Below, in pieces: positions 35,659-50,468 of a stretch of DNA of 64,000 bases. The translations under genes and the position numbers were made by a program. The DNA is taken from assembly GCA_000961655.1 (NCBI GenBank), contig LADR01000029.1, positions 1 to 64,000 of the forward strand. The letters are read 5' to 3'. Position 1 is the first letter of the stretch, and each line of letters begins with the position of its first letter. This stretch comes from Desulfatitalea sp. BRH_c12 (GTDB taxonomy: Bacteria; Desulfobacterota; Desulfobacteria; Desulfobacterales; Desulfosarcinaceae). The notes beneath the pieces are model-generated. The model had not been told where the DNA came from and made no database searches. It saw only the letters and a list, made by a program, of their open reading frames with translations.

Positions 35659-35900
35659 ACGAGATAACCATAAGTCATTTGAAAGCGCTGACAATCCTTT
35701 TTTTTACGATTGGCCCAAATCAAGCATATCCATTCACCTTTTTTGAGCTTTGTAGGCGGGCCGTTTACACGGTGCAACATGCAACCTGCGGCCAGAACAA
35801 GGGCTTTCGGCACACTCCGGCCAATTTGCAACGTGGTGCTGACCCGCAATCCATAGATTTTAAGATTTGCAGGTCGTCATAAAATATGAACACTTTTTTA

Positions 35901-35937
35901 TTGATATATTTTATATACTATATATAATATATAAAAT
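35901..35937 (+). promoter_or_regulatory. Promoter with embedded palindromic operator of the HxlR-type gene
   Basis: TTGATA (35901-35906), 16 bases, TATAAT (35923-35928). A 10-bp perfect inverted repeat ATTTTATATA (35908-35917) / TATATAAAAT (35928-35937) overlaps the spacer and the -10 box. This is where an autorepressor of the MarR/HxlR type would bind. Confidence 0.6.
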
Positions 35938-35953
35938 CGGACAAAGGCTTCGC

Positions 35954-36628
35954 ATGACGACCCAATATGATCATTTTTGCCCCATCGCGCGGGCGCTTGA
36001 AATCGTAGGAGACAAATGGTCCCTGCTCATTGTTCGCGACCTTCTGGATAAGCCGCAAAGGTTTTCCGATCTGATGGCAACGTTAGGGAAAATATCACCC
36101 AGATTGCTGACCCAACGGCTCCGGGACCTGGAAGCGGCAGGTATTATCGAACGAGATTTTCAAAAGGGCCGGCGCGAGGTGTGGTACCGCCTGTCTGCGG
36201 CAGGTCTCGAGCTTTCACCAGTCGTGGATTCGCTTTTAGATTGGGGGCTACGAAATGCCATGCGGCCGCCGCTACCGGGAGAAGTCCTCAACCCCGAGTT
36301 GATGATGCGGGGATTAACCCGCTCGCTGAACAACAAAGCAAAAGGTCTAGCTGGCGCTGTACGATGGATCATGCACTTTCCCGGCGGGACTTACACCATC
36401 TCGTATGATGGCCAACGCTGGAGCAGCCACCCTGGTGAATCGCCGGATGCGGACGTTACCATCACGACAACGCCCGAAACCTGGGCGCGTGTGCTCACAA
36501 TGCCGCGCCACGAGAGATGCCGCATGGCCAAAATGATCGACCTGGACGGGCGATCGGATAAAATTGAGGGATTCACCGCCCTATTCGGCTTACGGGCAAA
36601 AGACTCTAAAGAAAAAAGCAAAGTTTAA
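35954..36628 (+). CDS. HxlR-family regulator with C-terminal SCP2-like domain
   Basis: A 224-residue protein. Residues 1-100 form the HxlR winged helix (CPIARALEIVGDKWSLLIVR; the Cys at about residue 10 is the redox-active one in HypR-type members; ISPRLLTQRLRDLEAAGII). The C-terminal half (TYTISYDGQRWSSHPGESPD, DVTITTTPETWARVLTMPRH) resembles an SCP2 sterol-carrier/lipid-binding domain that may sense a hydrophobic ligand. It lies directly upstream of a MATE exporter and is the obvious candidate to control it. ATG at 35954 with AAAGG 6 bases before it. Confidence 0.82.
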   Translation: MTTQYDHFCPIARALEIVGDKWSLLIVRDLLDKPQRFSDLMATLGKISPRLLTQRLRDLEAAGIIERDFQKGRREVWYRLSAAGLELSPVVDSLLDWGLRNAMRPPLPGEVLNPELMMRGLTRSLNNKAKGLAGAVRWIMHFPGGTYTISYDGQRWSSHPGESPDADVTITTTPETWARVLTMPRHERCRMAKMIDLDGRSDKIEGFTALFGLRAKDSKEKSKV

Positions 36629-36697
36629 ATTGCTCGTCCACGGCATCTTCAAGACAGAAAGTTTCAATTTGGTTCAATCCAGAGGAGAGCGGAATCG

Positions 36698-38128
36698 ATG
36701 CAAGCCCAATGCGTTTCCACCCAGAGTTCACCGCTCGAAGTAGAAGAAAAAGGCATCCGAAATACGGTTCCCCTGAGAAGCACTTTGACCGAAAGTCTTT
36801 TGCAGGGGCCGATTATACCTCTGTTAATCCGATTGGCGAGCCCCAACGTGCTGGCCTTTTTTATCCAGTCTCTGGTCAGTATCGCCGAGGTCTGGTACGT
36901 GGGCCAACTGGGAACCGTTTACCTGGCCGGGTTGGCCCTGGTTTATCCGCTGTTGATGTTGATGCAAATGATGTCTGCCGGCGCTTTGGGCGGAGCGGTG
37001 GCATCATCTGTCGCACGCGCCATTGGTAAGGGAAGTATTGACCGCGCCGAGTCCCTGATATGGCATGCACTGGTGCTGGCCTTAATGGGGGCAGGATTTT
37101 TCAGCGCCGCCTATTTTAGCTTCGGGCAGCCATTTCTTGAGTTACTCGGGGGGCGCGGCGAGATGCTGGTCGAGGCCCAGTCTTACGCTCTTGTGCTGTT
37201 TTCGGGCTGCTTTCTGATTTGGACCACCAACATTTTCGCCAGCATCTTCCGTGGTATGGGCGATATGAGATACCCTGCCATCTTGATGGTGCTGGGCGTT
37301 TGCATTCAGGTACCCCTATCCGGTGCGCTCATATTGGGGTGGGGGCACTTCCCCCAACTGGGAGTTGCCGGGGGCGCCGTGTCCGCCATTCTTTCCGCGG
37401 CGATAACGACCGCACTGCTGCTTTGGCCTCTCATCAAGGGAAGCCGGGCGGTTAAAATGCGAATTGGATCCTTCCGACTGCAATATGCATTATTTAAAGA
37501 TATTCTGCGTGTCGGTCTGCTTGCATCCGTGTCGCCCATCCTCACCGTATTTACAATTCTGTGCATAACGAGCTTGGTGAGTCGCTTCGGTCCGGCCGCG
37601 CTCGCCGGTTACGGAATCGGCGCCCGTCTGGAATTCTTGTTGATCCCATTGATCTTTGGCATTGGCGCCGCGTTGACGGCTATGGTCGGGGTGAACATGG
37701 GTGCCGGAAACCTTAATCGGGCGTTACGCATCGGCTGGACCGGCGCTGCGGCGGCGGGGTTGCTTTCTGGCCTTATCGGTCTTGTAGTGGCTGTGCGACC
37801 CGCTTTATGGGTTGGATTATACACCCAAGATCCTTCCGTAATCGAAGCCGGCTCGAACTACCTGAAAATTGTGGGCAGCGCGTATCTATTTCAGGGTGTC
37901 GGGCTTTCCCTGTACTTTGCTTCTCAGGGAGCCGGTACAGTGTTCTGGCCAGTTGCGGCAGGTGTCCTGCGGGTCATTATCTCTGTAGGCGGCGCAGCGG
38001 TGGCTGTGCTGCTGCTGGACATGGGATTGAACAGCCTGTTCATTTTGACCGCCGCGGGCATGGTCATTTTCGGCATCATCACTGCGCTTTCGATTTTATT
38101 CGGCGCCTGGCGCAAATTCGCGCCCTAA
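36698..38128 (+). CDS. MATE-family multidrug exporter
   Basis: A 476-residue membrane protein with about twelve helices in two repeats. GGAVASSVARAIGKGSIDRA in the first half and GYGIGARLEFLLIPLIFGIG with AALTAMVGVNMGAGNLNRAL in the second half are the MATE signature segments. The N-terminal 25 residues are a hydrophilic extension. The ribosome site AGAGGAG precedes the ATG by 9 bases. Adjacent to an HxlR-type regulator, so efflux is probably induced by the ligand of that regulator. Confidence 0.92.
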   Translation: MQAQCVSTQSSPLEVEEKGIRNTVPLRSTLTESLLQGPIIPLLIRLASPNVLAFFIQSLVSIAEVWYVGQLGTVYLAGLALVYPLLMLMQMMSAGALGGAVASSVARAIGKGSIDRAESLIWHALVLALMGAGFFSAAYFSFGQPFLELLGGRGEMLVEAQSYALVLFSGCFLIWTTNIFASIFRGMGDMRYPAILMVLGVCIQVPLSGALILGWGHFPQLGVAGGAVSAILSAAITTALLLWPLIKGSRAVKMRIGSFRLQYALFKDILRVGLLASVSPILTVFTILCITSLVSRFGPAALAGYGIGARLEFLLIPLIFGIGAALTAMVGVNMGAGNLNRALRIGWTGAAAAGLLSGLIGLVVAVRPALWVGLYTQDPSVIEAGSNYLKIVGSAYLFQGVGLSLYFASQGAGTVFWPVAAGVLRVIISVGGAAVAVLLLDMGLNSLFILTAAGMVIFGIITALSILFGAWRKFAP

Positions 38129-38161
38129 CTCAGGTGGATTACCATTTTAAATGAGGTGTTT

Positions 38162-39247
38162 ATGAAATCAAAGGTATACCAAGATTTGCTTACGGTAATG
38201 CAGATGCGTCGAGGACCGTATGCCGGGCTGGACATTCCAGAGTTCTTTGCTTTGGTGAAGGAATTGTTTACTCCCGAAGAGGCAGAGGTGAACAATGCAC
38301 TCAGCACTCAGCCTGCAACCATTGAGCAAATCGCACATAAATTAAAGTGCGACCCAAACAGACTCAGCCCGCTTCTTGAAGCCATGGCTGATAAGGGGCT
38401 CTGTGCTACTTTTACCGTGGTCGGGCAACGCTTTTTTAAAGGTCTGCCGTTTATGCCCGGCATTTTCGAGTATCAGTTTATCGGGGGGGATGAATCACGG
38501 CGCCATCGAAAACTGGCACAACTGATATATGCTTACAAAAGCGCCTGTAACGCTTCCAAGGGCGCTGAGAAAATTACATTTCCGTTAACACGCGTGATAC
38601 CCGTCGATAAGACCATCGATGCGGGCAATCAAATTCATACCTATGACCAGGTTGCAACCTATGTTCAAAAAAACGATTCCATCGCTGTAGGCACCTGTTA
38701 TTGCCGGCATGCGGCAAAACTGCGCGGAGAAGATACGCACGACATGCCAATGGAGGTGTGTATGTGGTTTGGCCATGCAGCCGACTATATGGTTGAGCGT
38801 ATAGGCGGCAGAAAGGTGACGAAGAGTGAAGCCCTGTCGCTTTTGGATCAGGCGGAAAAGTCCGGGCTGATCCATATGAGCCGCAACACCACCGAAAACA
38901 TCGAGTATTTATGCAATTGCGATCGATGGCACTGTGAGGTGGTCACCAATGTACTCAAACAGCCAAAACCTGGCTGGGCCTTCAACTCCGGTTACCAACC
39001 CCGTTTTGATTCCGATCGATGCATCGCCTGTGGAACGTGCCTGGATCGGTGTCCACCCGAAGCGCTTGCAATGGGTGAGGCCCCGGTTCCTATCGTCAAT
39101 TTGGATAGATGTTTTGGATGTGCAGTCTGCGCGAGCGGATGTCCTGAAGCGGCCATCGTTATGGAAGCTAAACCCGAATTCCCTTCCCCCCCAAATACTG
39201 TCAAGGAGCTGGTTGCTGCATTGAAGGCATGTCGTACACACCCATGA
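38162..39247 (+). CDS. Ferredoxin-like 2x[4Fe-4S] protein with winged-helix-like N-terminus
   Basis: A 361-residue protein. The N-terminal 90 residues (STQPATIEQIAHKLKCDPNR then LSPLLEAMADKGL) look like a winged helix. The middle contains VGTCYCRHAAKLRGEDTHDM and NIEYLCNCDRWHC, extra Cys-rich sites. The C-terminus has two [4Fe-4S] motifs, CIACGTCLDRCP and CFGCAVCASGCP. Such proteins are common in sulfate reducers and Clostridia; the role is electron transfer, with an unknown partner. It is followed 24 bases later by a DUF3786 gene. Confidence 0.75.
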   Translation: MKSKVYQDLLTVMQMRRGPYAGLDIPEFFALVKELFTPEEAEVNNALSTQPATIEQIAHKLKCDPNRLSPLLEAMADKGLCATFTVVGQRFFKGLPFMPGIFEYQFIGGDESRRHRKLAQLIYAYKSACNASKGAEKITFPLTRVIPVDKTIDAGNQIHTYDQVATYVQKNDSIAVGTCYCRHAAKLRGEDTHDMPMEVCMWFGHAADYMVERIGGRKVTKSEALSLLDQAEKSGLIHMSRNTTENIEYLCNCDRWHCEVVTNVLKQPKPGWAFNSGYQPRFDSDRCIACGTCLDRCPPEALAMGEAPVPIVNLDRCFGCAVCASGCPEAAIVMEAKPEFPSPPNTVKELVAALKACRTHP

Positions 39248-39271
39248 GGCAGATGCGCTGAATACAACAAA

Positions 39272-39955
39272 ATGAAAGTGGTTCGGGCGTTTCCTTGGCA
39301 ATCGAACGATCAACAGGATCCTATTGTGAAAGACACATTGATCATTGGCGGCCATAAGAAGATTTACGAAGATCTTCTCCAATGTTTGAAGAGTGCTGAT
39401 ATTGCCACTTCGGCAAGGCATCTTGATCTTGCGCTGAATGCTAAAGGAGAAGCCGAGGTCCCTTTTTTTGGCACGACCTACCTGGTGTCGCACGAGGGGG
39501 TGCGGCGAGCGGATGAAAAGAGATTTTCAGATGCCATCGCAAGTGCATTGATCCATTATATTCTAAAAGGCAGCGACTGCCGGTCGAAGGGACAATTTGT
39601 CACGCTTGCGCAGCTTGCCGGTCCTCTCTTCGAGCACAGCAGTTACGCTCAGAGTGCGTTGGAACGCCCCATCGTAAAAAGATTTCAAACAAAAATTCAT
39701 GAACTACTAACAATCGCTGCGTCGGTTGGGGGCCACCCGGGCGGGGAAGCGGGATTGGGGGCGGTCAGCCTGATTTTTAATTTACTACCGCATATCCCAA
39801 TACAACTTATTTTCTATGACCGGGATGACGAATTTCCTGCCCGGGCGACCCTGTTGTTCGACCGCAATGCGACCCAATTTATTGATTTTGAAGTTTTGGC
39901 TGTTGCCGTAACGGTATTTGTAAGGTTCTTGACCAAAGACCAGCCTGAAAGATAA
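39272..39955 (+). CDS. DUF3786 protein
   Basis: A 227-residue protein. The conserved segments are FFGTTYLVSHEGVRRADEKR, LIHYILKGSDCRSKGQFVTL and the C-terminal PIQLIFYDRDDEFPARATLL with LFDRNATQFIDFEVLAVAVT. These define DUF3786, found mainly in anaerobes and often beside corrinoid or Fe-S protein genes. Function is unknown. No ribosome site is evident before the ATG at 39272; the in-frame GTG at 39326 (VKDTLIIGG) is a possible later start. Confidence 0.78.
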   Translation: MKVVRAFPWQSNDQQDPIVKDTLIIGGHKKIYEDLLQCLKSADIATSARHLDLALNAKGEAEVPFFGTTYLVSHEGVRRADEKRFSDAIASALIHYILKGSDCRSKGQFVTLAQLAGPLFEHSSYAQSALERPIVKRFQTKIHELLTIAASVGGHPGGEAGLGAVSLIFNLLPHIPIQLIFYDRDDEFPARATLLFDRNATQFIDFEVLAVAVTVFVRFLTKDQPER

Positions 39956-40053: not shown

Positions 40054-40584
40054 CTATTCGACCTTTTCTACCGGGTATTTGGCGCCCTTCCAGGCAAATA
40101 CACCGCCTGAGTAGCGATAGACATTTTTATAGCCTGATTTGACGGCCCAGGCGGCGCCGTTGTGGCTGCGGGTGCATTTAACGAATCCGCAGTAAATCAC
40201 GATGATTTTCTCTTTGTCGCTACCCAGCATGCGGATAAAATCCTCCTGGGTTTTGCCGTCGGTCTCTTTGCTGTCCCATTCGGTCATATCCGGGATGGGA
40301 AACAGGAACTGAAGCGCGCCCGGCACATGCTCTTTTTTGTAGCTATCCGCAAAGGGCATGCTGTCCACGATCACCATCTGTTTGCCGCTGTCGATCCATT
40401 GCTTCAGCTCACCTGTGGTCACCAGGGAATACCCGCCGCGCTGAACGTCGCGCAGCAATTTGACGGCGTCGGTTTCCTTCTCCAACTCTTTTACGAATTT
40501 GTTGCCGAATACCGCCATTGCCGGACAGGTTAAACCCAACACCAGAACGAGCACCATCGCCACTTGCAACATCCGTTTAGACAT
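40054..40584 (-). CDS. Exported rhodanese-like protein
   Basis: A 176-residue protein with a signal peptide (about residues 1-24, cleavage after AMA). The rhodanese domain has MVIVDSMPFADSYKKEHVPG (CH2A-like region) and the active loop IYCGFVKCTRSHNGA. The loop Cys is the likely persulfide carrier, and the second Cys four residues on is unusual. It probably handles sulfur in the periplasm. ATG at 40584 with GGAG 7 bases upstream. Last gene of the minus-strand reductase cluster, after a REP-like palindrome. Confidence 0.82.
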   Translation of the reverse strand: MSKRMLQVAMVLVLVLGLTCPAMAVFGNKFVKELEKETDAVKLLRDVQRGGYSLVTTGELKQWIDSGKQMVIVDSMPFADSYKKEHVPGALQFLFPIPDMTEWDSKETDGKTQEDFIRMLGSDKEKIIVIYCGFVKCTRSHNGAAWAVKSGYKNVYRYSGGVFAWKGAKYPVEKVE

Positions 40585-40635
40585 ACACATTCTCCTTTTT
40601 TTAGGTTAGTCTTCAACTCTCGGGTTCCAAACGCC

Positions 40636-40677
40636 GGTGATCCGGGCGTGTTGTCCGCGCCACACGCCCGGATCACC
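40636..40677. repeat. REP-like palindrome (GTGATCCGGG family), copy with compensatory changes
   Basis: GGTGATCCGGGCGTGTTG (40636-40653) pairs with 40660-40677 with one mismatch. Compared with 30431-30472, positions 12 and 14 of the stem changed in both arms (T:A to C:G, G:C to T:A). It begins one base after the stop of the MauE-like gene. Confidence 0.85.
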
Positions 40678-41172
40678 TCACTCGTGCCAATCCCGAAAGT
40701 TGAGGTAAGTAAGTCGTTTATTGATCAACCAGGTCACCCGAATCGGGGTCACACGGTCGTAGATCCGCCATGCATACAGATAGGCTATCGCCGCCAGCAT
40801 AGCGAGGTCCCGGTAAAGGCCCCACTTGAGGCCGTGGAAGGCATCGGCTTCGGGGTCTTCCGGGCCAAAGCAGCCGCAATCCACATCCAGCCCCAAGTGG
40901 ATGCCGTATCCCAAAAGCGCCACAAACAGCAGCAGCAAACCCGTAATGACCGCCAGGCTGCCGCGAAGATCAACCAGCAACCCGGCTCCGGCCACCACCT
41001 CCACCACCGGTAGTATCACGGCCGCCGGCAAGAGCAGCGCTTCGGGCACCAACCCGAAGGCTTCAATCAGAACCGCAAAGGTCTCGGGCGCCAGAAGCTT
41101 GGTTACACCGGAATAGATAAAAGTGATGCCCAACATCCAGCGCAGGCAGCGATAACTCCAGACAAGCATCAC
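40678..41172 (-). CDS. MauE/DoxX-like membrane protein
   Basis: A 164-residue protein with four membrane helices (about residues 8-26, 44-66, 70-92 and 115-135). LGITFIYSGVTKLLAPETFA is the DoxX/MauE first-helix motif and LDVDCGCFGPED carries the CxC redox motif typical of MauE, which helps form disulfides or supplies reductant across the membrane. It overlaps the stop of the activator gene by one base. A redox link between the periplasmic rhodanese and the cytoplasmic Fe-S reductase is conceivable. Confidence 0.78.
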   Translation of the reverse strand: MMLVWSYRCLRWMLGITFIYSGVTKLLAPETFAVLIEAFGLVPEALLLPAAVILPVVEVVAGAGLLVDLRGSLAVITGLLLLFVALLGYGIHLGLDVDCGCFGPEDPEADAFHGLKWGLYRDLAMLAAIAYLYAWRIYDRVTPIRVTWLINKRLTYLNFRDWHE

Positions 41173-41930
41173 TACCCCTCCCCTCTCGCCAGCAGTGCCG
41201 CTCCCAAGGCGCCGGCGAATTGCGGTTGTTCGGGTACCAGGATGCCACGGCCCAGTTTTTCAGCCAACAGCGCACGCATGCAGGGATTGTTGGCCACACC
41301 GCCGGTGAAAACGATCGGGCCTTCGGACGACACACGCTGGATCATGGCGACGGCGCGGCGGATAACGCTGAGATGCAGTCCCCGCGAGATTTCGCTGCGG
41401 TTTTCGCCCCGGGCGATCAGGGAGGTGACCTCAGATTCAGCAAAAACCGTGCACATGCTGGAGATGGCCAAATCCTTTTCGGCCAGGAGGGCCGCCCAGC
41501 CAAAACGCCCAATGTCGTAGCCCAGGTTGCGGGCCATGATTTCCATGAACTTGCCGGTGCCGGCGGCGCAGCGGTCGTTCATTTCAAATTTCTTCACCTT
41601 GCCGTTTTCATACAAGGCGACGGCCTTGCTGTCCTGACCGCCGATGTCCAGAATAGCGCGGGCCTGGGGGAAGTAAAAGCGCGCCCCCGTGGCATGGGCT
41701 TTGATCTCGGTCACCGTCTGGGCATCGAAGGCGATTTCGTACAGATTGCGGCCGTAACCGGTGGCCATGATGCGATCGTAAGCGACCCCCTCGGTCATCC
41801 GCTTGGCTTCGGCCATGGGGTCAAAGCCGGTGTCGGACTGTCGGCTGAGAAGGATATTTCCGGATACGTCGACGATAACCAACTCGATGGTGCGCGAGCC
41901 GATGTCGATGCCTGCGAAACGATTGCGCAT
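41172..41930 (-). CDS. ATP-dependent activator of a 2-hydroxyacyl-CoA-dehydratase-family reductase (BadF/HgdC)
   Basis: A 252-residue ASKHA-fold ATPase, dimeric with a single bridging [4Fe-4S] cluster. It begins with FAGIDIGSRTIELVIVDVSG (phosphate 1), then DIGGQDSKAVAL (phosphate 2) and FTGGVANNPCMRALL (adenosine). The cluster-binding Cys pair is in MNDRCAAGTGKFME and SMCTVFAESEV. ATP hydrolysis drives electron transfer to the partner encoded 2 bases upstream. The length equals HgdC/DCCP-R. Confidence 0.92.
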   Translation of the reverse strand: MRNRFAGIDIGSRTIELVIVDVSGNILLSRQSDTGFDPMAEAKRMTEGVAYDRIMATGYGRNLYEIAFDAQTVTEIKAHATGARFYFPQARAILDIGGQDSKAVALYENGKVKKFEMNDRCAAGTGKFMEIMARNLGYDIGRFGWAALLAEKDLAISSMCTVFAESEVTSLIARGENRSEISRGLHLSVIRRAVAMIQRVSSEGPIVFTGGVANNPCMRALLAEKLGRGILVPEQPQFAGALGAALLARGEG

Positions 41931-41932
41931 AC

Positions 41933-43213
41933 TTAACTCGTTATCTGCTCGACGAACGCTTCCACGCGCGTCTTGAGCTGGCCCATGTCTTCCATGCTGT
42001 AATCGGTTTCGATGCGCAGACAGGGGATATTCATCTCTTCGAGAGCTTTTTCCACCGGTATGGATTCCATCAGGTAGGGCTGGCAGAACTGCAGGCCGTA
42101 GTGGATAACGCCGTCGGCTTTATAGGCGGCGACCATCTCCTCGATATGGATCAGGCGCTCCTGGTTGGGCGTGAAGATGGCACAATCGACTTGGAAGTAG
42201 CGCTCCACGATGGCTTCCAGCATCTCGTCGATGGTTTGTCCGGATTCAACGGTAAGATTGCGGGTACCGCGCTCGCCCACGCAGGACTCTTCGCCCACGA
42301 TCACCGCGCCGGCGCTCTCCACGATCATGGGCAGCTTCCAATTGGGCACGGCCTGGGGGCAGCCCGCTATGAGGATACGCGGTGTTCCGGCGGGAAAAAC
42401 GCCTATGTTGTCCGCGATGCCCTGTTCCAATTCATCGCAGATGGTGTTCACCGAGGCGGTAAAGCGGGCCGGGTTGTCGTAGAAGGAGACCTGGTTGGTC
42501 AAAAGGGCATCCAGACCGGATATGGGCGTCGGGCTGGCCTTGCGCAAGGCGCAGAGCCTGTGGATGGCGGCGCGCTTGGCGTTCACGGTGCGGATGGCCT
42601 GCCTGAGGGAATCGGCGGTGATGGCTACGCCGGTGAGGTCTTCGACGGCGGTCTTGAAGCGCAGATACTCCGCTTTGAGAAGCTGCCGGCCGTTGATTGA
42701 TTTGACCTGGGGCAGATCCATCACGTAGAGGTTGTCCACCAGGTCGCCCAGGGATTCATAGGCTTTTTTCTTGCCGTCGCAGGTGTTCTCGCCCACGATC
42801 ATGTCCGCGCTTTCCAGGTACGGGCAGACCTTGCCGATTTTGAACCCGAAGGCGGATTTGATCAGGGCGCAGGTGTTGCGCGGCAGCAATTTTTCCACCT
42901 CTTCGGTGGCGAAATCGGCGCCGGAGCACAAGCCTATCAAGGTGGCGTTGGCGGCCAGCACGATCTCTTCGGGGACAAACACGCAGTAGGAGCCGATGAT
43001 TTTGCGGCCGGCGGCTTTTTCGTCGAGCAACTCCTTGATGCGCAGGCCGTGCACTTCGCTCATGACAAAATCGAAATAGGCCATCCCTTCCGGGCGCTCT
43101 TTCTGAAATAAGTAGATATCCTGATAGGCTTTTCCCAATACCCCCAGCAGTGCATCATGGCCGGCCAAGTCCATTCCCAGTTCGGCCCACATGGAACGAT
43201 AGTCTTCACTCAT
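41933..43213 (-). CDS. Double-cubane-cluster anaerobic reductase (HgdB-like, single subunit)
   Basis: A 426-residue protein of the 2-hydroxyacyl-CoA dehydratase D-component superfamily. The pattern YCVFVPEEIVLAANATLIGL, CSGADF, LLPRNTCALIKSAFGFKIGK, VCPYLESAD and GENTCDGKKKAYESLG matches the single-subunit double-cubane proteins, whose [Fe8S9] cluster reduces small molecules, rather than the two-subunit dehydratases, because no second dehydratase subunit is present. The adjacent ATPase is its activator. The true substrate is unknown. Start: ATG at 43213 with GAGAGGG upstream; an in-frame extension of 39 residues is Cys-rich but lacks a ribosome site. Confidence 0.85.
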   Translation of the reverse strand: MSEDYRSMWAELGMDLAGHDALLGVLGKAYQDIYLFQKERPEGMAYFDFVMSEVHGLRIKELLDEKAAGRKIIGSYCVFVPEEIVLAANATLIGLCSGADFATEEVEKLLPRNTCALIKSAFGFKIGKVCPYLESADMIVGENTCDGKKKAYESLGDLVDNLYVMDLPQVKSINGRQLLKAEYLRFKTAVEDLTGVAITADSLRQAIRTVNAKRAAIHRLCALRKASPTPISGLDALLTNQVSFYDNPARFTASVNTICDELEQGIADNIGVFPAGTPRILIAGCPQAVPNWKLPMIVESAGAVIVGEESCVGERGTRNLTVESGQTIDEMLEAIVERYFQVDCAIFTPNQERLIHIEEMVAAYKADGVIHYGLQFCQPYLMESIPVEKALEEMNIPCLRIETDYSMEDMGQLKTRVEAFVEQITS

Positions 43214-43292
43214 GATTGATTCCCTCTCAATTTTACCGGCCACCGGCATGAAATCCAGTTTGGCGGTAAGGGTGAATTTGTTTTCGCCCGCG

Positions 43293-43931
43293 TTAGCGCA
43301 GGAAGTAATGCAGCAGACGCAGCAAAGCACCGACCATGCGCGAGTGACGTCCGGTAAGAAACTGTTGGTCGGCCTTCCCTGAAAGATCGGGCCGCTGCCT
43401 CAGGATTTCACGGGCTGCCAGTTCGGCGGCGCCGGCAGTCAACCCGGCGCACTGCTGAAAATGAGCCTTGCTGTCGTGCTTGACTTTTTTGGACAACACC
43501 CTGCAGCAGGTCGCACCGTAAGCGGCTTTGAAGGCATCGTGCAGATGGCGGGCGTCGGCGCGCAACTGCCTGCGGCGGCGATAGGGCCGCTCGCCGCCGG
43601 ATAGCAATCCGCAGCCCATCACCGCACCGCTCAGGGCCCCGCACAGACAACCGCTGTCCCCCATGGCCACGCAGAACGGGGCCGCCATGGCGATGACCTG
43701 GGCCTGGCTCAATCCTCCGTGCAGGCCGCTGTTCAGCGCGGCCAGCACGGCTTCGGCGCAGAGCATCTGGCGCGTTTCATACAGGTAGCGGGCGCTTTCG
43801 CGGATTTGGACGATGAGCGCTTCGGCCTGCGGGCTGGTCTGCGCTGCCGGTGCTGCGGCAAAGCCTGTCACGCGTTGAAGATCATCTTTTTTAAGTGCGT
43901 TCTTATTCACTGATGGCGCATCCCTATTCAT
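43293..43931 (-). CDS. C_GCAxxG_C_C family protein
   Basis: A 212-residue protein. MLCAEAVLAALNSGLHGG is followed by APFCVAMGDSGCLCGALSGA and VMGCGLLSG, the family pattern for a C-GCxxG-C-C protein with probable Fe-S or metal binding. An extra Arg-rich middle (about 115-130) and a C-terminal segment with CAGLTAGAAELAAREIL follow. Function is unsettled. It lies 79 bases upstream of the double-cubane reductase gene, on the same strand. Start ATG at 43931 has no good ribosome site; GTG at 43940 is an alternative. Confidence 0.7.
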   Translation of the reverse strand: MNRDAPSVNKNALKKDDLQRVTGFAAAPAAQTSPQAEALIVQIRESARYLYETRQMLCAEAVLAALNSGLHGGLSQAQVIAMAAPFCVAMGDSGCLCGALSGAVMGCGLLSGGERPYRRRRQLRADARHLHDAFKAAYGATCCRVLSKKVKHDSKAHFQQCAGLTAGAAELAAREILRQRPDLSGKADQQFLTGRHSRMVGALLRLLHYFLR

Positions 43932-44042
43932 CCGGGGCACAGCCCCTCATGCTTGGTTATGCAGTTGGCGCATGTGACTGTCGAATACCTTGGCTTGCCA
44001 CTTTCGTCTTTTTACTTTCCCGGTTTCCGACAAAGCAGGTTA

Positions 44043-44351
44043 TCAACAGCAATGGTCCGATGATCCGCAGCCACTGCATCCGCACGCCGACTGGAGCGAC
44101 GAAGAAACTTTAAACCCCTGCCCGGTGAAATCGATTTCGATGGGTTGGGCCTGTGATAGAAAATCTTTGTTCACCAGAAATTGGATACCGGCGAACTCGA
44201 AGGTCTCATCCTCGGGCTGTTTATCGTCCAAGGCCAGGGCGATCTGCGATCCGCCACAACCGCTGTTTAAAAACAATCGTATGGGTTTGACTTCGTTTTC
44301 TTTAAAAAACTGCGCAATCTGTTCCTGTGCTTTTTCGGTGACTTTCAGCAT
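44043..44351 (-). CDS. IscA/HesB-like Fe-S protein
   Basis: A 102-residue protein beginning MLKVTEKAQEQIAQFFKENE, with IRLFLNSGCGGSQIALALDD (first conserved Cys) and ending SACGCSGCGSSDHCC. The C-terminal CGCSGCG replaces the usual CGCG of A-type carriers and gives extra Cys. It could be a dedicated Fe-S scaffold for the neighbouring Fe-S proteins. ATG at 44351 with AAAGGAG 9 bases upstream. Confidence 0.82.
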   Translation of the reverse strand: MLKVTEKAQEQIAQFFKENEVKPIRLFLNSGCGGSQIALALDDKQPEDETFEFAGIQFLVNKDFLSQAQPIEIDFTGQGFKVSSSLQSACGCSGCGSSDHCC

Positions 44352-44429
44352 GGTTTCGAACTCCTTTAGCATTATTGAAGACTGGTTTTTCACTAATCCC
44401 GCCCAAGCGCCGGCCAACTGGAGATTCCA

Positions 44430-44453
44430 ATGGTGGGCGATGCCCACCCTACC
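44430..44453. repeat. GTGGGC/GCCCAC palindrome, end fragment of the dispersed element
   Basis: The 24 bases ATGGTGGGCGATGCCCACCC followed by TACC match the right end of the elements at 330-510 and 58.97-59.88 kb. Only this end is present here. Confidence 0.6.
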
Positions 44454-44557
44454 TTTCTGTTCTTTTCTTGGAGACATGATCCGCCCATTTCTGTTTTCTG
44501 GTTATCCACTTCGGTCAAGTGAGATACGGGCGTGGGGTGACGTAAAAACCAAGGCCA

Positions 44558-45040
44558 TCATCGCAGGCCTCCGATCAGGCCGCGGAAAACGCGACGTAAA
44601 TCTCTTTCGTCGATCAGCAGCACGGGATCGGGGTCGTTTTCTTCCGGGCTAGTCGTCACGACTTCCGGTTGCCCGGAGTCGTTCGCGACTGGCCGGGTGA
44701 TGCAGCGCTGCTCGATCTGTTCGAGGGTCAACTCGCGGTTATTTTCTATCCAGCGATGGCAATCGTCATGCGAGCCCACATAGAGCAGGAAAAACCGGCT
44801 GCCCTGTTTGAAGGTGACCAGGCGGTAGCCGCTGCCCAAGTCGTACTTCATTACCCCTTTAATTCGCAGTTCGCCGTGCTTGGTCACGGTTCCCACGCGA
44901 TCGGCAATGATGCCGCCTGACTGCAGGCGATCGATGATGTCGCGGGCTTTGGCGGCTGCCAAGGCGGCCTTCTTGCCTGACCGCTGCAGGGTGTCCAGAC
45001 GTTTATCTATTCTCGGGTCCAAATGAATGTTCTGCAGCAT
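44558..45040 (-). CDS. RelE-fold protein, possible toxin relative or RNA-binding partner
   Basis: A 160-residue protein. MKYDLGSGYRLVTFKQGSRF followed by FLLYVGSHDDCHRWIENN is the core of RelE/HigB-like folds (YR...G..F.LLYVG.HDD...W). No antitoxin gene is beside it; the two neighbours are an IscA-like and an HdrA gene on the same strand, 26 bases after HdrA begins counting from its stop. A role as a stand-alone toxin is therefore doubtful. Start with GAGGAG 8 bases upstream. Confidence 0.6.
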   Translation of the reverse strand: MLQNIHLDPRIDKRLDTLQRSGKKAALAAAKARDIIDRLQSGGIIADRVGTVTKHGELRIKGVMKYDLGSGYRLVTFKQGSRFFLLYVGSHDDCHRWIENNRELTLEQIEQRCITRPVANDSGQPEVVTTSPEENDPDPVLLIDERDLRRVFRGLIGGLR

Positions 45041-45065
45041 GATGATTACTCCTCGTTTTGCGGTC

Positions 45066-48000
45066 TTACGCCGCTTCGATCATGGCCATGATCTGGGCGT
45101 CGTCGAACCCCAGCAGCCGCAAGGCGCCGGAACGACAGGAGGCCACGCATAACCCGCACCCCTTGCACAAGGCCGGGTTGACTTCGGCTTTGCCGGCAAA
45201 GGGGCCATCGCCTTTCAAAGCAGGGGCGTTATACGGACACAGGGCCACGCACACGCCACAACCGGCGCAGAGGCGCGGATCGACTTGAGCCGTGGTGCCG
45301 CTGGTCAAAATGGTTTTCCGGGAGAGCAGCACCGTGGCAGCCGATGCGGCGGCCTGGGCCTGGGCGATGGCCTCGTCAATGGGTTTGGGGTAATGGGCCA
45401 GGCCGCAGAGAAACACGCCGTCGGTGGCAAACGCGCAGGGGTTCAGCTTGACATGGGCTTCCACGAAAAAGCCATCGGCGTTCATGGGCACCTTGAAAAA
45501 CTGAGCCAACGTCTCGTCCCGGTAGGGTACGATGGCTGCGGCCAGCGTGAGCAGATCGGCGCGCAGGGTCACCGGGCGGCGCAGCACATGATCTTCGACA
45601 GTGATTTCCAGGGCCTCCGCTGTGGCGTTGACGACAGGTTTGCGCTCACGGTCATAGCGGAGAAAGATGACCCCTTTCTGGCGTGCCTGCTGATACAGGG
45701 ATTCGCGTTCGCCATAGGTGCGTATGTCGCGGTAGAGAATAAAAACCTGCATGTCCGGATTGCACTCTTTCAGGTGCAAGGCAGAGACGACCGCGTGGGT
45801 GCAGCAGATGCGCGAGCAGTAAGGCCTTTCGGGTTCACGCGAGCCGACGCACTGAATAAACACCGCTGTGCGGGCCTGCGCCACAGCGGCATCGTCCTCG
45901 CGCAGGCGCCGATCGAGTTCCAGGCCGGTCATTACCCGAGGGTCTTGGCCGAACAGGTACTCTTGCGGCTGAAGCTCGCGGGCCCCACTGGCGATAACGG
46001 TCACGCCGTGTTCGACAACCGTCTGCCGACCGCCGGCGGTCAGGATGGATTTGAAATTGCCGACGAATCCTTCGACACGGTACAGCTCGGAGTTCAGGTG
46101 GACGGTGATGCGCGGATCGTCCGCCACCTGCCGAATGATTTGCGCTAACCGGTCCTGAACGTTGTCGCCCTTGGCCGTGCGGAAAAGATGGCGGGCCTGG
46201 CCGCCGAGCGCGCCGTCGCGTTCGACAATCACGGCCGGAAACCCCTGGCGCGAGAAGGCCAGGGCCGCGGCCATGCCGGACACGCCCCCCCCGATGATCA
46301 TGGCCTTGGGCGCGATCTCCAATTTTTCTTCTTTCAGCGGCGCCAGCCGCAGTGCTTTGGCCACGGCCATGCGCACCAAGTCTTTGGCTTTGGCGGTGGC
46401 GCGCGCAGGATCCTGCATGTGTACCCAGGAGTTCTGGTTGCGAATGTTGACGAACTCGAGCAGGTATTTGTTAAGCCCGGCCGCGGCCAGGGTTTCCTGA
46501 AACAACGGTTCGTGGGTTTTGGGGGAACAGGCCGCCACGACGATGCGGTTAAGGTTTTCCGCGCGGATTTTGGCAGTAATGATGTTCTGGGTGTCCTGCG
46601 AACAGGAGTACAGGTTATCGGCCACGTAGGCCACCTCCTGCAAGGTGGCTGCATAGTGGCGCACGGCCGGTACATCCACCACGCCGCCGATGTTGATGCC
46701 GCAGTGACAGACGAAGACGCCGACGCGCGGCGGCTCGCCGCGCATGTCGCGTTCAGGCGGCAACGCACCATGAACGGTCAGGCTGTTGCGGGCTTCAGAC
46801 AAATCGGCCCCGGCGCACAAAGCCGCGCTGCCGGCCTCGATGACGGATTGGGGGATGTCCTTGGGGCCGGCGAACGCGCCACACACGTATATGCCGTCGC
46901 GCGAAGCGGCGGTGGGGGCGAAATCGTCGATCCGGCAAAAACCGCCCTCGCCCAGCGCGATACCCAGACTGCAGGCCCAGCGGCGCTGTTCCACGGCTGT
47001 TTGCAGTCCGACGGAGAGGATGACCAGATCGAAGTGTTCTTCCTGGATGTGGCCGGATTCATCCGCGTAACGCAACGCCAGCTGTCGGCTTTGTTGATCG
47101 GGCACTACGGTATGTACGCGGCTGCGTACAAAACGCACGCCGTGCTTGTGGCGCGCTTCGTTGTAGCAATCCTCGAATCCTTTGCCGTGCGTGCGCATGT
47201 CCATGAAAAAAATACTGCAATCGAGCGGGTGGTCGGCATGCTCCTTGGCGATGATGGCCTGCTTGATGGCGTACATGCAGCAGACTGCCGAGCAGTAGAA
47301 GTGATCGCAGCGGTTTTGGTCACGCGAGCCGATACACTGCAGCCAAGCAATGCGCCGGGGTTCGCGCCGGTCGGAAGGCCGCATGAGATGGCCACCAAAG
47401 GGACCTGAGGCGGACAGGATGCGTTCGAATTCGAGCGAGGTCATTACGTCCGGATGGGCGCCATAGCTCAAATGATCCTGCCCGGTGGGATTGAAAGGCT
47501 GGAATCCGGGCGCCAGAATCACCGCGCCGACGGTGAGCGTCTGCGTTGCCTCACGATCGTTGAGCCGGACGGCGCCGGCTGGGCACACGTTGGCGCAGAC
47601 GCCGCATTTGCCTTTTTGCAGGTAGATGCAGTTGTCGGCATCGATAAGGTACTTGAGCGGCACGGCTTGCGGATAGAGCACATAGGCGGCTTTGCGCATG
47701 ATCAATCCCTGGTTGAAACTGTCGCTGACCTTCTTGGGGCATTTTTCGGCGCACAGGCCGCAGGCGATGCATTTATCCGGATCGACGTAGCGCGGACGCC
47801 GGCGCAACGTTACCGAAAAGTCGCCCTTCACACCGTCAATAGCCTGGATATCGGTCATCGTAAGAATGTCGATATTGGGATGACGCCCTACTTCCACCAG
47901 CTTGGGGCTCATGATGCACATGGCGCAGTCGTTGGTGGGAAATGTCTTGTCGAGCATGGCCATCACGCCGCCGATCGCTGCGTCTTGCTCGACGAGATAC

Positions 48001-48098
48001 ACTTTGTAGCCGGAATTGGCCAGATCCAGGGCGGCTTGAATACCGGCGATGCCGCCGCCGGCCACCATGACTGCTCCGATAGGTTGAGAAAGGGTCAT
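45066..48098 (-). CDS. Fused double HdrA-like flavoprotein (heterodisulfide reductase subunit A family)
   Basis: A 1010-residue protein made of two HdrA-like modules. Module 1: FAD loop VAGGGIAGIQAALDLANSGY (about 12-31), CIACGLCAEKCP and CGVCANVCP clusters, CIGSRD...C..VCCMYAIKQA. A HdrA linker VGVFVCHCGINIGGVVDVP with CSQDTQNII follows. Module 2: FAD loop IIGGGVSGMAAALAFSRQGF, CVGSREPERPYCSRICC, and C-terminal CAGCGVCVALCP and CKGCGLCVASC clusters. HdrA bifurcates electrons through FAD in complex with MvhD and HdrBC, and these proteins are all encoded upstream. The Cys in VCHC is a normal codon here. Start with GAGG before the ATG. No hydrogenase or F420-type partner is adjacent. Confidence 0.9.
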   Translation of the reverse strand: MTLSQPIGAVMVAGGGIAGIQAALDLANSGYKVYLVEQDAAIGGVMAMLDKTFPTNDCAMCIMSPKLVEVGRHPNIDILTMTDIQAIDGVKGDFSVTLRRRPRYVDPDKCIACGLCAEKCPKKVSDSFNQGLIMRKAAYVLYPQAVPLKYLIDADNCIYLQKGKCGVCANVCPAGAVRLNDREATQTLTVGAVILAPGFQPFNPTGQDHLSYGAHPDVMTSLEFERILSASGPFGGHLMRPSDRREPRRIAWLQCIGSRDQNRCDHFYCSAVCCMYAIKQAIIAKEHADHPLDCSIFFMDMRTHGKGFEDCYNEARHKHGVRFVRSRVHTVVPDQQSRQLALRYADESGHIQEEHFDLVILSVGLQTAVEQRRWACSLGIALGEGGFCRIDDFAPTAASRDGIYVCGAFAGPKDIPQSVIEAGSAALCAGADLSEARNSLTVHGALPPERDMRGEPPRVGVFVCHCGINIGGVVDVPAVRHYAATLQEVAYVADNLYSCSQDTQNIITAKIRAENLNRIVVAACSPKTHEPLFQETLAAAGLNKYLLEFVNIRNQNSWVHMQDPARATAKAKDLVRMAVAKALRLAPLKEEKLEIAPKAMIIGGGVSGMAAALAFSRQGFPAVIVERDGALGGQARHLFRTAKGDNVQDRLAQIIRQVADDPRITVHLNSELYRVEGFVGNFKSILTAGGRQTVVEHGVTVIASGARELQPQEYLFGQDPRVMTGLELDRRLREDDAAVAQARTAVFIQCVGSREPERPYCSRICCTHAVVSALHLKECNPDMQVFILYRDIRTYGERESLYQQARQKGVIFLRYDRERKPVVNATAEALEITVEDHVLRRPVTLRADLLTLAAAIVPYRDETLAQFFKVPMNADGFFVEAHVKLNPCAFATDGVFLCGLAHYPKPIDEAIAQAQAAASAATVLLSRKTILTSGTTAQVDPRLCAGCGVCVALCPYNAPALKGDGPFAGKAEVNPALCKGCGLCVASCRSGALRLLGFDDAQIMAMIEAA

Positions 48099-48186
48099 GC
48101 GTCGTCCTCAAGGAAATACATTGAAAGATGAAGGTGCGTCTTTCTTGTCATGCGTTGCCACGCGGTGGCGTGGAAACGCAGGGGGC

Positions 48187-48627
48187 CTATGCTTCAACAG
48201 CTTGCGCCCGTATGGGCGCTTTGACCATGTATCGCGCCGGGCCAAGGGCCTGGACCGCTTCGGTCACCTGCCGGGCTGTGGCAGCGAATTTGGTCGCTTC
48301 GGCCGATGAGATCCATGAGAAGTGCAGACGTCCCGCCTCCAGGCCCATATACGTCATCAGGTTCTTGAGCAGGGCGAACTTGCGGCGCGCGTAAAAGTTG
48401 CCCTCGATGTAGTGGCAGTCCCCGGGATGGCAGCCGGAAACCCAGATGCCGTCAGCGCCGCTGCGCAGGGCCGAGAGAATCAGTTTGGGGCTGATGCGGC
48501 CGCTGCAGGGCACCCGGATCACACGGATGTTGGGCGGATATTGCAGGCGACTGACGCCGGCCAGGTCGGCGGCGCCATAAGTGCACCAGTTGCAGAAAAA
48601 GGCGATGATTTTGGGTTGCCAGCACAT
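48187..48627 (-). CDS. MvhD-like iron-sulfur subunit 1
   Basis: 146 residues. PKIIAFFCNWCTYGAADLAG, RVPCSGRISPKLILSALRSG and GCHPGDCHYIEGN are the MvhD pattern: a [2Fe-2S] ligated by Cys and a HdrA-docking loop. It passes electrons between HdrA and a partner dehydrogenase. AAAGGAG precedes the ATG by 9 bases. A second paralogue lies 42 bases upstream. Confidence 0.9.
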   Translation of the reverse strand: MCWQPKIIAFFCNWCTYGAADLAGVSRLQYPPNIRVIRVPCSGRISPKLILSALRSGADGIWVSGCHPGDCHYIEGNFYARRKFALLKNLMTYMGLEAGRLHFSWISSAEATKFAATARQVTEAVQALGPARYMVKAPIRAQAVEA

Positions 48628-48669
48628 CGGCGAAGTCTCCTTTGTTCTATTATTAACGTGACGACGCCA

Positions 48670-49119
48670 TCACGTCAGCATCTTCTCTTTCACGGCGATG
48701 TCGACCTTTCGGATGGTGTTGGGACCGAGGCGGCGCACCGCCGCGGTCATCTCGGTGGCAATTTCGGCAAACCGCGGCCCCATGGCCGAGCTCAGATTGA
48801 ACATGCGCACCCTATCAGCCGCGATGCCGGCCTCGACCAAGAGCTTTCGAACCGCCGCCACCTTCTTTTTGGTTTTGAGGTTGCCTTCAATGAAGTGGCA
48901 CTCGCCTTCCAGGCAACCGGCCACATAGACCCCATCAGCACCCTCTTCAATCGCTTTGAGCAGATGGAGCATGTCCACCCGTCCGGTGCAGGGCACCTGG
49001 ATGATCTTGACATTAGACGGATAGTCCAAGCGCATGCTACCGGCCAGGTCTCCGGCGGCATAAGCGCAGTACTTGCAACAAAATGCCAGGATCTGCGGTT
49101 CAAAGTTCTTCTCGATCAC
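48670..49119 (-). CDS. MvhD-like iron-sulfur subunit 2
   Basis: 149 residues, beginning with GTG (VIEKNFEPQILAFCCKYCAY). VPCTGRVDMLHLLKAIEEGA and GCLEGECHFIEGN repeat the MvhD signature. The GTG start at 49119 is chosen because AAGGAGG lies 6 bases before it; a longer frame has none. Two MvhD paralogues in one cluster suggests two electron-entry partners or a heteromeric pair. Confidence 0.9.
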   Translation of the reverse strand: MIEKNFEPQILAFCCKYCAYAAGDLAGSMRLDYPSNVKIIQVPCTGRVDMLHLLKAIEEGADGVYVAGCLEGECHFIEGNLKTKKKVAAVRKLLVEAGIAADRVRMFNLSSAMGPRFAEIATEMTAAVRRLGPNTIRKVDIAVKEKMLT

Positions 49120-49133
49120 TGTTTTCCTCCTTG

Positions 49134-50468
49134 TCAGCGGCCCGCGAAGGGATCGGGCGTCCCGGGCTCCCCCGGCAGCCATACCTCTTTTAAGTCGTCA
49201 CCCAGGTACTCGCGTTCGTTTTCGGCCAGGATGCCCAGGGCCAGTGCGATGATGGTCCACAGGTGCGTGACATGGTAGCGGCCCTCGAAGTGTTCGGCCA
49301 GGTCGTGGATCTGGGCGTGGCAGTTGTGGCAGGGCGTCAGACAGTAATCAGCGCCTGTGGCGATGATCTGGTCGAACTTGATTTTACCGTAGTGGTGGCG
49401 CGCTTCGGTGTAGCCGGATTGCAGATAGCCGCCCCCGCCGCCGCAGCAGTAGTTGTTGGAGCGGTTGGGAACCATGTCGATGAAGTTCTCTTCGCCCACG
49501 CAGGCTTTGACCACGTAGCGCATTTTGTCGGCCTGGACGTCGCCATAACTTTTGCGGATCTGGTTGCACGGGTCCTGGACGGTGAACTTGATCTTCAAAT
49601 CCCGGTTCCAGGCGGAGCTGACCTTGAGCTTTCCCGATGTGATCCACTCATAGTAGTAGGCCACCATCGGCGCGATCTCCAAACCCGAATTGAGCGCAAA
49701 ACGTTTGTCGGCGGCCCATACGGAATAGGTTGAGTGGCCGCATTCGGTGTTCAGGTAGACTTTGCAGCCCAGATCCTTGGCTCGTTGCAGCGAGCTGGCC
49801 GCGATTTTCTTCCAATTTTCATCGTCGGCCAGGAACATGCAGTAGTTTTCACCGCCCCACCCTGTGCAACTGTAAGTCCAATCCGCGCCCGCCAGGTGCA
49901 GGATTTTCCACAGGGGTACCATTTCATCCGGTTCAGTGACCGGTTCGCGTGAGTTCTGGCTGAGGAAGAAATGCGCGCCCTGCTTGTCGAGCGGCGCTTG
50001 CAGGTCCTCCCATCCAGGCTGCGTTTCACGGACTTCGGCCGCCACATCCTCGACCACAAAGCGAAAATCTTCGGGAGGTGTGCCCATGGCGCTGCAGCTT
50101 TCGTTACGCAGGGCCATGTCGCACGATCCCAGAATGCCTTTGGGGCGTTCCTCGCGCGGCCACAGTTTACGGGCCTCGAAAACCAAACCGGCAATGTTGA
50201 TCTCCATGGGGCATACATAGGTGCAGCGCATGCACATCGAGCACATCCATACCCAGGGATGTCGGGTGATTTCCGCATCCATGCCGAGAGCGATCATGCG
50301 CACAAACTTACGCGGGTCCATGTCTTCCAGGCCGGTGGCCGGGCATCCCGAGGCGCATGCGCCACAGGTGAGACACAGACTCAAATTGCCGCCATTGGGT
50401 AGAATGGATTTGACTTTATCGATGAATCGGTTTGACTTTTCAGCTGGAAGGGTGATGACAAGGCTCAT
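49134..50468 (-). CDS. HdrC-HdrB fusion (HdrD/DsrK-type Fe-S reductase)
   Basis: 444 residues. The N-terminal HdrC part has two [4Fe-4S] motifs, CLTCGACASGCP and CSMCMRCTYVCP (about residues 32-43 and 79-90). The HdrB part has CCG-type Cys clusters: YLNTECGHSTYSVW, QDPCNQIRK, NNYCCGGGGGYLQSG and LTPCHNCHAQIHD. The CCG motifs can hold a noncubane [4Fe-4S] as in HdrB/HdrD/DsrK. It probably reduces a disulfide or a thiol-linked acceptor. It starts the minus-strand operon hdrCB, mvhD, mvhD, hdrA. ATG at 50468 with AAAGGAG upstream. Confidence 0.9.
   Translation of the reverse strand: MSLVITLPAEKSNRFIDKVKSILPNGGNLSLCLTCGACASGCPATGLEDMDPRKFVRMIALGMDAEITRHPWVWMCSMCMRCTYVCPMEINIAGLVFEARKLWPREERPKGILGSCDMALRNESCSAMGTPPEDFRFVVEDVAAEVRETQPGWEDLQAPLDKQGAHFFLSQNSREPVTEPDEMVPLWKILHLAGADWTYSCTGWGGENYCMFLADDENWKKIAASSLQRAKDLGCKVYLNTECGHSTYSVWAADKRFALNSGLEIAPMVAYYYEWITSGKLKVSSAWNRDLKIKFTVQDPCNQIRKSYGDVQADKMRYVVKACVGEENFIDMVPNRSNNYCCGGGGGYLQSGYTEARHHYGKIKFDQIIATGADYCLTPCHNCHAQIHDLAEHFEGRYHVTHLWTIIALALGILAENEREYLGDDLKEVWLPGEPGTPDPFAGR

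Follow-up and report, generated by a model that had tools for sequence, protein, structure and literature searches.

The question raised by a gene string of Desulfatitalea sp. BRH_c12 is what a double-cubane cluster protein (DCCP) reduces in the living cell, and with which partners. DCCPs occur widely, being found in 134 of 395 genomes sampled from the phylum, and according to a 2025 paper it is still unclear how far their in vitro activities matter to the cell (PMC11971306). The window analyzed here, which covers positions 1 to 64,000 of contig LADR01000029.1 in a 6.0-Mb genome of the family Desulfosarcinaceae, holds a DCCP gene within a run of 11 co-directional genes on the minus strand (40054 to 50561), close to genes for an activase, a MauE-type membrane protein, and an exported rhodanese. 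From sequence and gene context, we propose that this string encodes an ATP-driven chalcogen reductase system, that is, a reductase for selenium and possibly for sulfane sulfur, and we give this proposal an even chance of being correct. An earlier note on the window had taken the sulfur-handling neighbors as a hint of a sulfur or selenium substrate; neighborhoods in other genomes bear this out, more clearly for selenium, while the window's own string carries no selenium gene. A selenium link would give DCCPs a first testable role and, together with a recurring envelope module that has selenocysteine (Sec) forms beside the enzyme in two genomes, would narrow the substrate to a short testable list.

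Judged by its sequence, the central protein of the string is a DCCP. Its gene (41933 to 43213, minus strand; 426 amino acids) scores 464.9 bits against the DCCP model NF040772 (cut-off, 350), and its best match in the Protein Data Bank (PDB), at an E value of about 1e-134 and over nearly its whole length, is the solved DCCP of Carboxydothermus hydrogenoformans (7yyl and 6eno), followed by BzdN (2.3e-17), MbdN (4.8e-17), and a dehydratase (3.3e-14). The open reading frame opens at 43330, and the ATG at 43213 is preceded by GAGAGGGAA. Cysteines C77, C115, C145, C311, C344, and C377, all confirmed at the codon level, align with the six ligands of the [8Fe-9S] double-cubane cluster in BzdN of the class I benzoyl-CoA reductase BzdNO (Cys36, Cys73, Cys100, Cys263, Cys293, and Cys327; PMC11971306), in an alignment that was read by hand and that uses the ligand set of BzdN, not that of a DCCP itself. 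BzdNO differs in being a heterodimer with a CoA-ester substrate, and the similarity of the window DCCP to BzdN is low (66 bits in the PDB search). The activase gene (41172 to 41930, minus strand; a BadF/BadG-type ATPase of 252 amino acids; TIGR00241, 220.3 bits; cut-off, 125.4) starts 2 bases after the DCCP gene, and the activase is the presumed electron donor to the DCCP. A single-subunit protein with an activase-type reductase partner is also what is found in C. hydrogenoformans (6eno and 7yyl); unlike that protein, however, the window DCCP is embedded with HdrA/MvhD, a HesB-type IscA, a C_GCAxxG_C_C protein, MauE, and an exported rhodanese.

The Pfam family HGD-D is common to DCCPs and to the dehydratases and benzoyl-CoA reductases, and the protein might on that account be taken for a subunit of a 2-hydroxyacyl-CoA dehydratase or of a benzoyl-CoA reductase. 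The sequence refutes this, and we put its probability close to nil. The dehydratase model HadC gives 100.9 bits against a cut-off of 700, with no partner subunit on the contig, where the single large DCCP subunit is the only PF06050 match; the BzdN model gives 71.4 bits against a cut-off of 453.8, compared with 464.9 for the DCCP model. Four further PF06050 places in the same genome were all below every cut-off when scanned (the best score is to HadC for one and to HadB for another; a third is intermediate between DCCP and BzdN, and the fourth is a weak HadB relative), and on a quick tree, where their branches are long, none of the four groups with the DCCP rows. The earlier note had called the protein a double-cubane reductase and had taken grouping with genuine 2-hydroxyacyl-CoA dehydratases as evidence against this; the profile scores, the structural match, the six ligand cysteines, and the tree uphold the DCCP identity, and no such grouping is seen. 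A second, divergent DCCP stands beside the activase in several relatives (L190 8001, L191 9624, L194 9219, and L198 9590) and is absent from the window.

Gene neighborhoods were surveyed in 395 genomes drawn evenly from the phylum, of which the 134 mentioned above have a DCCP over the cut-off. The 120 regions examined hold 123 DCCP genes, of which 92 belong to the window's own clade (clade A, at least 400 bits to the window DCCP) and 31 to a second clade (clade B); these regions are most of the listed places over the cut-off, and a hand count puts the places omitted or truncated at 21, the majority of them on short contigs or at low rank. The 80 nearest named loci form another set, which overlaps the phylum genomes, and the two sets were not added together. 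Neighboring genes were labeled by phmmer with one query each, and hmmscan was run on one representative of each selenium class. Scores over the cut-off were obtained for TIGR03527, TIGR04112, TIGR00476, TIGR00475, NF040786, and PF11823; the SclA-like representative passed TIGR01977, a cysteine desulfurase family, and fell short of SclA itself. The DCCP tree comprises 156 proteins and was built by a quick method with SH-aLRT support, and it has long branches. DCCPs also occur in the control genomes Escherichia coli and Methanocaldococcus jannaschii. The papers listed as naming the E. coli DCCP homologue YjiM or its activase YjiL, one of which deals with LysR regulators and mentions both, gave no indication of function at the level of that listing. 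The DCCP of Shewanella fodinae (L236), with 79% identity to that of the window in the best segment, is grouped within the Desulfobacterota DCCPs on the quick tree, which reflects either horizontal transfer or contamination.

A selenium-related gene lies within 6 kb of the DCCP in 33 of the 92 clade-A loci (YedF in 19, SelD in 11, YedE in 9, SelB in 8, LysR_Se in 6, DUF3343 in 6, and an SclA-like desulfurase in 5), in 12 of the 31 clade-B loci, and in 32 of the 80 named loci. Leaving out SelB and the SclA-like genes gives 29 of 92 and 12 of 31 for the two clades, and 28 of 92 and 11 of 31 when stricter scores are applied as well; counting SelD, YedE, or LysR_Se alone gives 18 of 92 and 6 of 31. 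Most of the selenium-related genes found within this distance of clade-A DCCPs (53 of 64) share the strand of the DCCP. As a rough chance expectation, a Poisson figure that assumes eight selenium genes per 3.5-Mb genome and ignores genome relatedness and operon clustering gives 2.8 loci for any selenium gene, against 33 observed, and 0.35 for SelD alone, against 11. On the DCCP tree, the selenium label needs at least six changes across well-supported branches and is therefore not one inherited block. Among the other neighbors within 6 kb of the 92 clade-A DCCPs, the activase is found in 66 loci (in 65, no more than 500 bases downstream), a ParE-like gene in 10, MvhD in 7, HdrA in 4, IscA in 2, a rhodanese in 2, and MauE in 1. 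The DCCP operon of Desulfosarcina widdelii has YedE and DUF3343 alongside, on the opposite strand.

These counts bear on two other accounts of the enzyme. One would make the DCCP a broad low-potential reductase of small molecules whose neighbors are incidental, and it is in keeping with the in vitro activities on acetylene, azide, and hydrazine, the physiological relevance of which is unclear (PMC11971306), and with neighborhoods that differ between genomes. We consider it unlikely, given that co-location with selenium genes is far above the rough chance figure and recurs across the DCCP tree. The other would have the DCCP act later, in maturing or repairing selenoproteins or other metalloenzymes, for example by a reductive activation like that performed by the activase family elsewhere. 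SelB, as well as SelD, lies close to DCCPs, and the HesB-type IscA and the C_GCAxxG_C_C protein of the window string would suit such a task; the neighbors elsewhere, however, include presumed transport and selenide-supply genes (YedE, YedF, and DUF3343), which argues for supply rather than repair and makes this account improbable indeed. At the level of whole genomes, a DCCP over the cut-off is present in 126 of 348 genomes with SelD and in 8 of 47 without SelD over the cut-off (Fisher p 0.009), which is weak evidence because SelD is over the cut-off in 348 of the 395 genomes.

Two side observations concern the selenium-related genes themselves. A Carb_kinase-like protein of about 299 amino acids adjoins DUF3343 at L272:7621-9038 and occurs in 23 of the clustered DCCP loci (DUF3343 occurs in 22 and YedE in 30, in overlapping sets), making it a candidate for an unnamed selenium gene. 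In two loci (L233:9554-10105 and L192:5060-5716), a TGA aligns with the near-terminal cysteine of DUF3343, and it may be either a Sec codon or simply a stop.

The link between DCCPs and selenium is itself already hinted at in print. In the selenium cluster of Slackia heliotrinireducens, a dehydratase-like (2-hydroxyglutaryl-CoA dehydratase) subunit and an activase are STRING partners of the selenium genes YedF, DUF3343, and LysR_Se, whose partners also include SelD and a protein of the Sec lyase family (Lin 2015, PMC5322559), and a dicubane protein has been called provisionally linked to selenium (PMC10418091). The portion of the Slackia paper that lists these partners does not propose the dehydratase-like subunit or the activase as selenium genes and names no MauE or rhodanese partner; the window string, for its part, differs from that cluster in holding no selenium gene. 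In a partial coverage of the literature, we found no published account of a connection between DCCP and either MauE/rhodanese or Hdr.

The second component of the proposal is the envelope module that follows the activase. The MauE gene (40678 to 41172, minus strand; PF07291, 93 bits; cut-off, 27) encodes a four-helix membrane protein of the MauE/DoxX type with the pair C99-G-C101 (in DCGCF), and the rhodanese gene (40054 to 40590, minus strand; PF00581, 63.1 bits; cut-off, 22.2) encodes an exported protein of 178 amino acids with C134-GFVK-C139, a CxxxxC pair. In the phylum sample without the window, all 22 MauE homologues scoring at least 80 bits adjoin a rhodanese on the same strand. A selenium-related gene lies within 6 kb in six of these 22 modules: YedF in all six, in one of them together with SelD, and LysR_Se and an SclA-like gene once each. 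DCCP occurs at this distance in 2 of the 22 and a C_GCAxxG_C_C gene in 3. In the window's own family, 16 of 30 genomes (window included) have a MauE homologue of at least 100 bits, which stands beside DCCP in 5 of the 16. Viewed from the DCCP, a MauE of at least 80 bits is a rare neighbor: just one of the 92 clade-A loci and one of the 31 clade-B loci have it within 6 kb, and MauE proximity on the DCCP tree, marked on 11 rows, needs at least five changes. The gene order also varies: it is MauE-rhodanese-(GCA)-DCCP-activase in Desulfosarcina and GCA-DCCP-activase-MauE-rhodanese in the window, where GCA stands for the C_GCAxxG_C_C gene. Co-location of DCCP and MauE with an altered order is the pattern that a functional tie would give, yet it is a minority state. 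We rejected MauE-rhodanese-GCA-DCCP as a general four-gene cassette because no more than 2 of the 22 MauE genes in the phylum sample and 5 of the 16 in the family lie near a DCCP. For the conservation of the neighborhood, which the earlier note had made a check on its reading, this means that the exact set is not broadly conserved and that the association nevertheless recurs, in a minority of genomes.

Conserved features of the two proteins suggest a redox pair at the outer face of the membrane. The CGC of MauE is invariant in 29 of 29 aligned relatives. The rhodanese core CGFxKCTRSHN is likewise invariant in all 29 aligned relatives, which are Cys forms, the Sec forms being split by TGA and excluded; a hydrophobic N-terminal segment is present in 29 of 29 rhodaneses and a lipobox-like motif in three. 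The CGC-bearing loop of MauE has a negative charge in 24 of 24 sequences and the C terminus is positive in 23 of 24, so that by the positive-inside rule the CGC is predicted to face the periplasm. An AlphaFold2 (AF2) model of MauE has four helices (pLDDT 88), and a fold search with it against the PDB gave no match at an E value of 0.001 or better, the NACHO/TMEM35A receptor chaperone ranking third and a VKOR-like protein twentieth. A structural kinship of MauE with any known thiol oxidoreductase was considered and rejected. We infer a redox role for MauE from the invariant CGC and the gene context.

In two genomes (L080; and L090, which equals L307 and L342), rhodaneses beside DCCP-activase carry TGA codons exactly at the positions of Cys134 and Cys139; these forms were detected by alignment with TGA read as a residue. 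Both (L080:6931-7428 and L090:4790-5353) have two in-frame TGA codons (UxxxxU) and no fused DsbD part in the same frame, and both score about 200 bits in matching the N-terminal part of the selenoprotein TsoB. The gene order in L090 runs from DCCP and activase through YedF to Sec-rhodanese, MauE, and Cys-rhodanese. TsoB (NF045694) is described as a rhodanese/DsbD fusion with a UxxxxU motif (PMC13188914). The window rhodanese resembles its N-terminal rhodanese domain, with CxxxxC at the place of UxxxxU, and is likewise partnered with a membrane protein bearing a cysteine pair. Unlike TsoB, the window rhodanese has Cys in place of Sec, lacks a fused DsbD, and at 178 amino acids reaches 88.6 bits against a TsoB cut-off of 805, and MauE is a separate protein of a different family. 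By analogy, MauE may stand in place of the DsbD part of TsoB.

These elements can be combined into a scheme for the proposed chalcogen reductase. The HdrA/MvhD set would supply low-potential electrons, and the activase would use ATP hydrolysis to drive them onto the [8Fe-9S] cluster of the DCCP. There a selenium compound, whether elemental, polyselenide, selenite-derived, or thiol-bound, would be reduced to selenide, which SelD takes as its substrate; the same DCCP chemistry could serve sulfane sulfur. The CxxxxC pair of the periplasmic rhodanese may carry selenium or sulfane sulfur, and MauE may exchange electrons with this pair through its CGC. BzdNO, which has an [8Fe-9S]-type cluster as well as a [4Fe-4S] cluster, requires potentials below -600 mV for its second and third electrons (PMC11971306), and the potential of selenide, itself strongly reducing, is near that of H2 (PMC5187540); a low-potential donor therefore fits, yet this is no proof that ATP is needed. 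A wider version of the proposal would make the DCCPs of this clade ATP-driven selenium reductases that produce the selenide used by SelD, joined in some sulfate reducers by a periplasmic, selenium-capturing relay of rhodanese (CxxxxC or UxxxxU) and MauE and by an HdrA/MvhD electron source. We offer this version tentatively, as a possibility.

Several observations weigh against a selenium role or against parts of the scheme. No selenium gene lies within 6 kb of the DCCP in the window string; SelD (with an in-frame TGA) and YedF of the same genome are encoded on a different contig, where neither lies close to a DCCP, and no YedE over the cut-off was found in the genome. Across the phylum sample, a selenium-related gene is missing within 6 kb at 59 of the 92 clade-A loci, although just 56 of the 92 have nearly full flanks, and for 16 of the 22 MauE/rhodanese modules that distance includes no DCCP and no selenium-related gene. 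Eight of the 47 genomes with SelD below the cut-off carry a DCCP over the cut-off (by hand count); they are 81 to 99% complete, one of them having a SelD only just under the cut-off, and the link between DCCP and selenium is thus not obligatory. Relatives of YedE, TusA, and DUF3343 may also handle sulfur. An Hdr or Mvh gene on the DCCP strand within 6 kb is found in just 7 of the 92 phylum clade-A loci (3 of 12 in the family and 7 of 80 among the named clade-A loci), and the proposed electron supply is therefore a reading for this lineage and not for DCCPs at large. The order HmcF-like, MvhD, HdrA piece, ParE-like, (IscA), DCCP is shared by two genomes of the window's taxonomic order and two further Desulfatitalea loci.

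Much of this would suit a system that handles sulfane sulfur (polysulfide, thiosulfate, or persulfides) instead of selenium, with the selenium genes nearby explained by carriers common to sulfur and selenium traffic (TusA, DUF3343, and YedE-type transporters). The window string has sulfur-type genes (rhodanese and IscA) and no selenium gene, DCCPs persist in the eight genomes just described, the MauE/rhodanese module stands alone in those 16 of 22 cases, and the host lineage, the Desulfosarcinaceae, is known for sulfate reducers. On the other side, SelD, SelB, and the selenium-associated LysR are within 6 kb of 11, 8, and 6 of the 92 DCCPs, respectively, and DCCP is commoner in genomes with SelD (126 of 348 versus 8 of 47; Fisher p 0.009). 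We regard this sulfur-only explanation as doubtful, though it deserves more weight than either the broad-reductase or the maturation account.

The proposed reductase is likely transcribed with the rest of the string, whose 11 genes are separated by gaps of -49 to +102 bases; promoter and terminator scans of the string gave nothing beyond shuffled sequence. From upstream to downstream, the order is HmcF/TmcB/DsrK-like, two MvhD, HdrA, ParE-like, IscA, C_GCAxxG_C_C, DCCP, activase, MauE, and rhodanese, all on the minus strand. The earlier note had listed the DCCP, the activase, a MauE with a CxC motif, a C_GCAxxG_C_C protein, an IscA with CGCSGCG, and a rhodanese, and profile searches recovered each of them as an intact minus-strand open reading frame matching its family. 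Its interval of 40678 to 43931 holds most of these genes, with the rhodanese (40054 to 40590) and the IscA (44043 to 44477) just outside, and its description lacked the upstream continuation to 50561 (ParE-like, HdrA, two MvhD, and HmcF-like).

The C_GCAxxG_C_C gene (43293 to 43940; PF09719, 86.9 bits; TIGR01909, 68.4 bits, cut-off 47.4) encodes a cysteine-rich protein in which six Cys columns are invariant among 8 of 8 aligned relatives. The IscA/HesB-like protein (44043 to 44477) is a Cys form that does have the CGCSGCG motif and was called unusual in the earlier note; it belongs to a named family, NF038090 IscA_HesB_Se (93.2 bits; cut-off, 85). Selenocysteine codons were sought in the fetched relatives of the C_GCAxxG_C_C protein (22 matches) and of IscA (36 matches), and none were found. 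The ParE/RelE-fold protein (44558 to 45040; PF24732, 22.9 bits, just below the cut-off of 24.4) gives a model (pLDDT 76) that matches YafQ/RelE-type structures, and HDxC and W are among the invariant residues of its alignment. Thirty-four listed places (a few genomes being counted twice) have such a ParE-like protein no more than 1.5 kb from a DCCP, 32 of them on the same strand, and at 9 of the 12 family loci and 11 of the 80 named loci of clade A it is accompanied by a HesB-type IscA, both within 6 kb of the DCCP.

Further upstream are an HdrA-type flavoprotein of 1010 amino acids (45066 to 48098; NF040770, 919.9 bits, below the cut-off of 1100), an MvhD/FlpD-type electron-transfer subunit (48187 to 48627; PF02662, 178.3 bits; cut-off, 22.3), a second MvhD-type subunit (48670 to 49182; NF045873, 142.5 bits, below the cut-off of 215), and an HmcF/TmcB/DsrK-like Fe-S protein (49134 to 50561; TmcB 166.6 and HmcF 157.2 bits, both below cut-off). 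Downstream of the string, a plus-strand group (35867 to 39955) comprises a MarR-like regulator (RrpB-like, under the cut-off), a MATE transporter, a ferredoxin-domain protein, and a DUF3786 protein.

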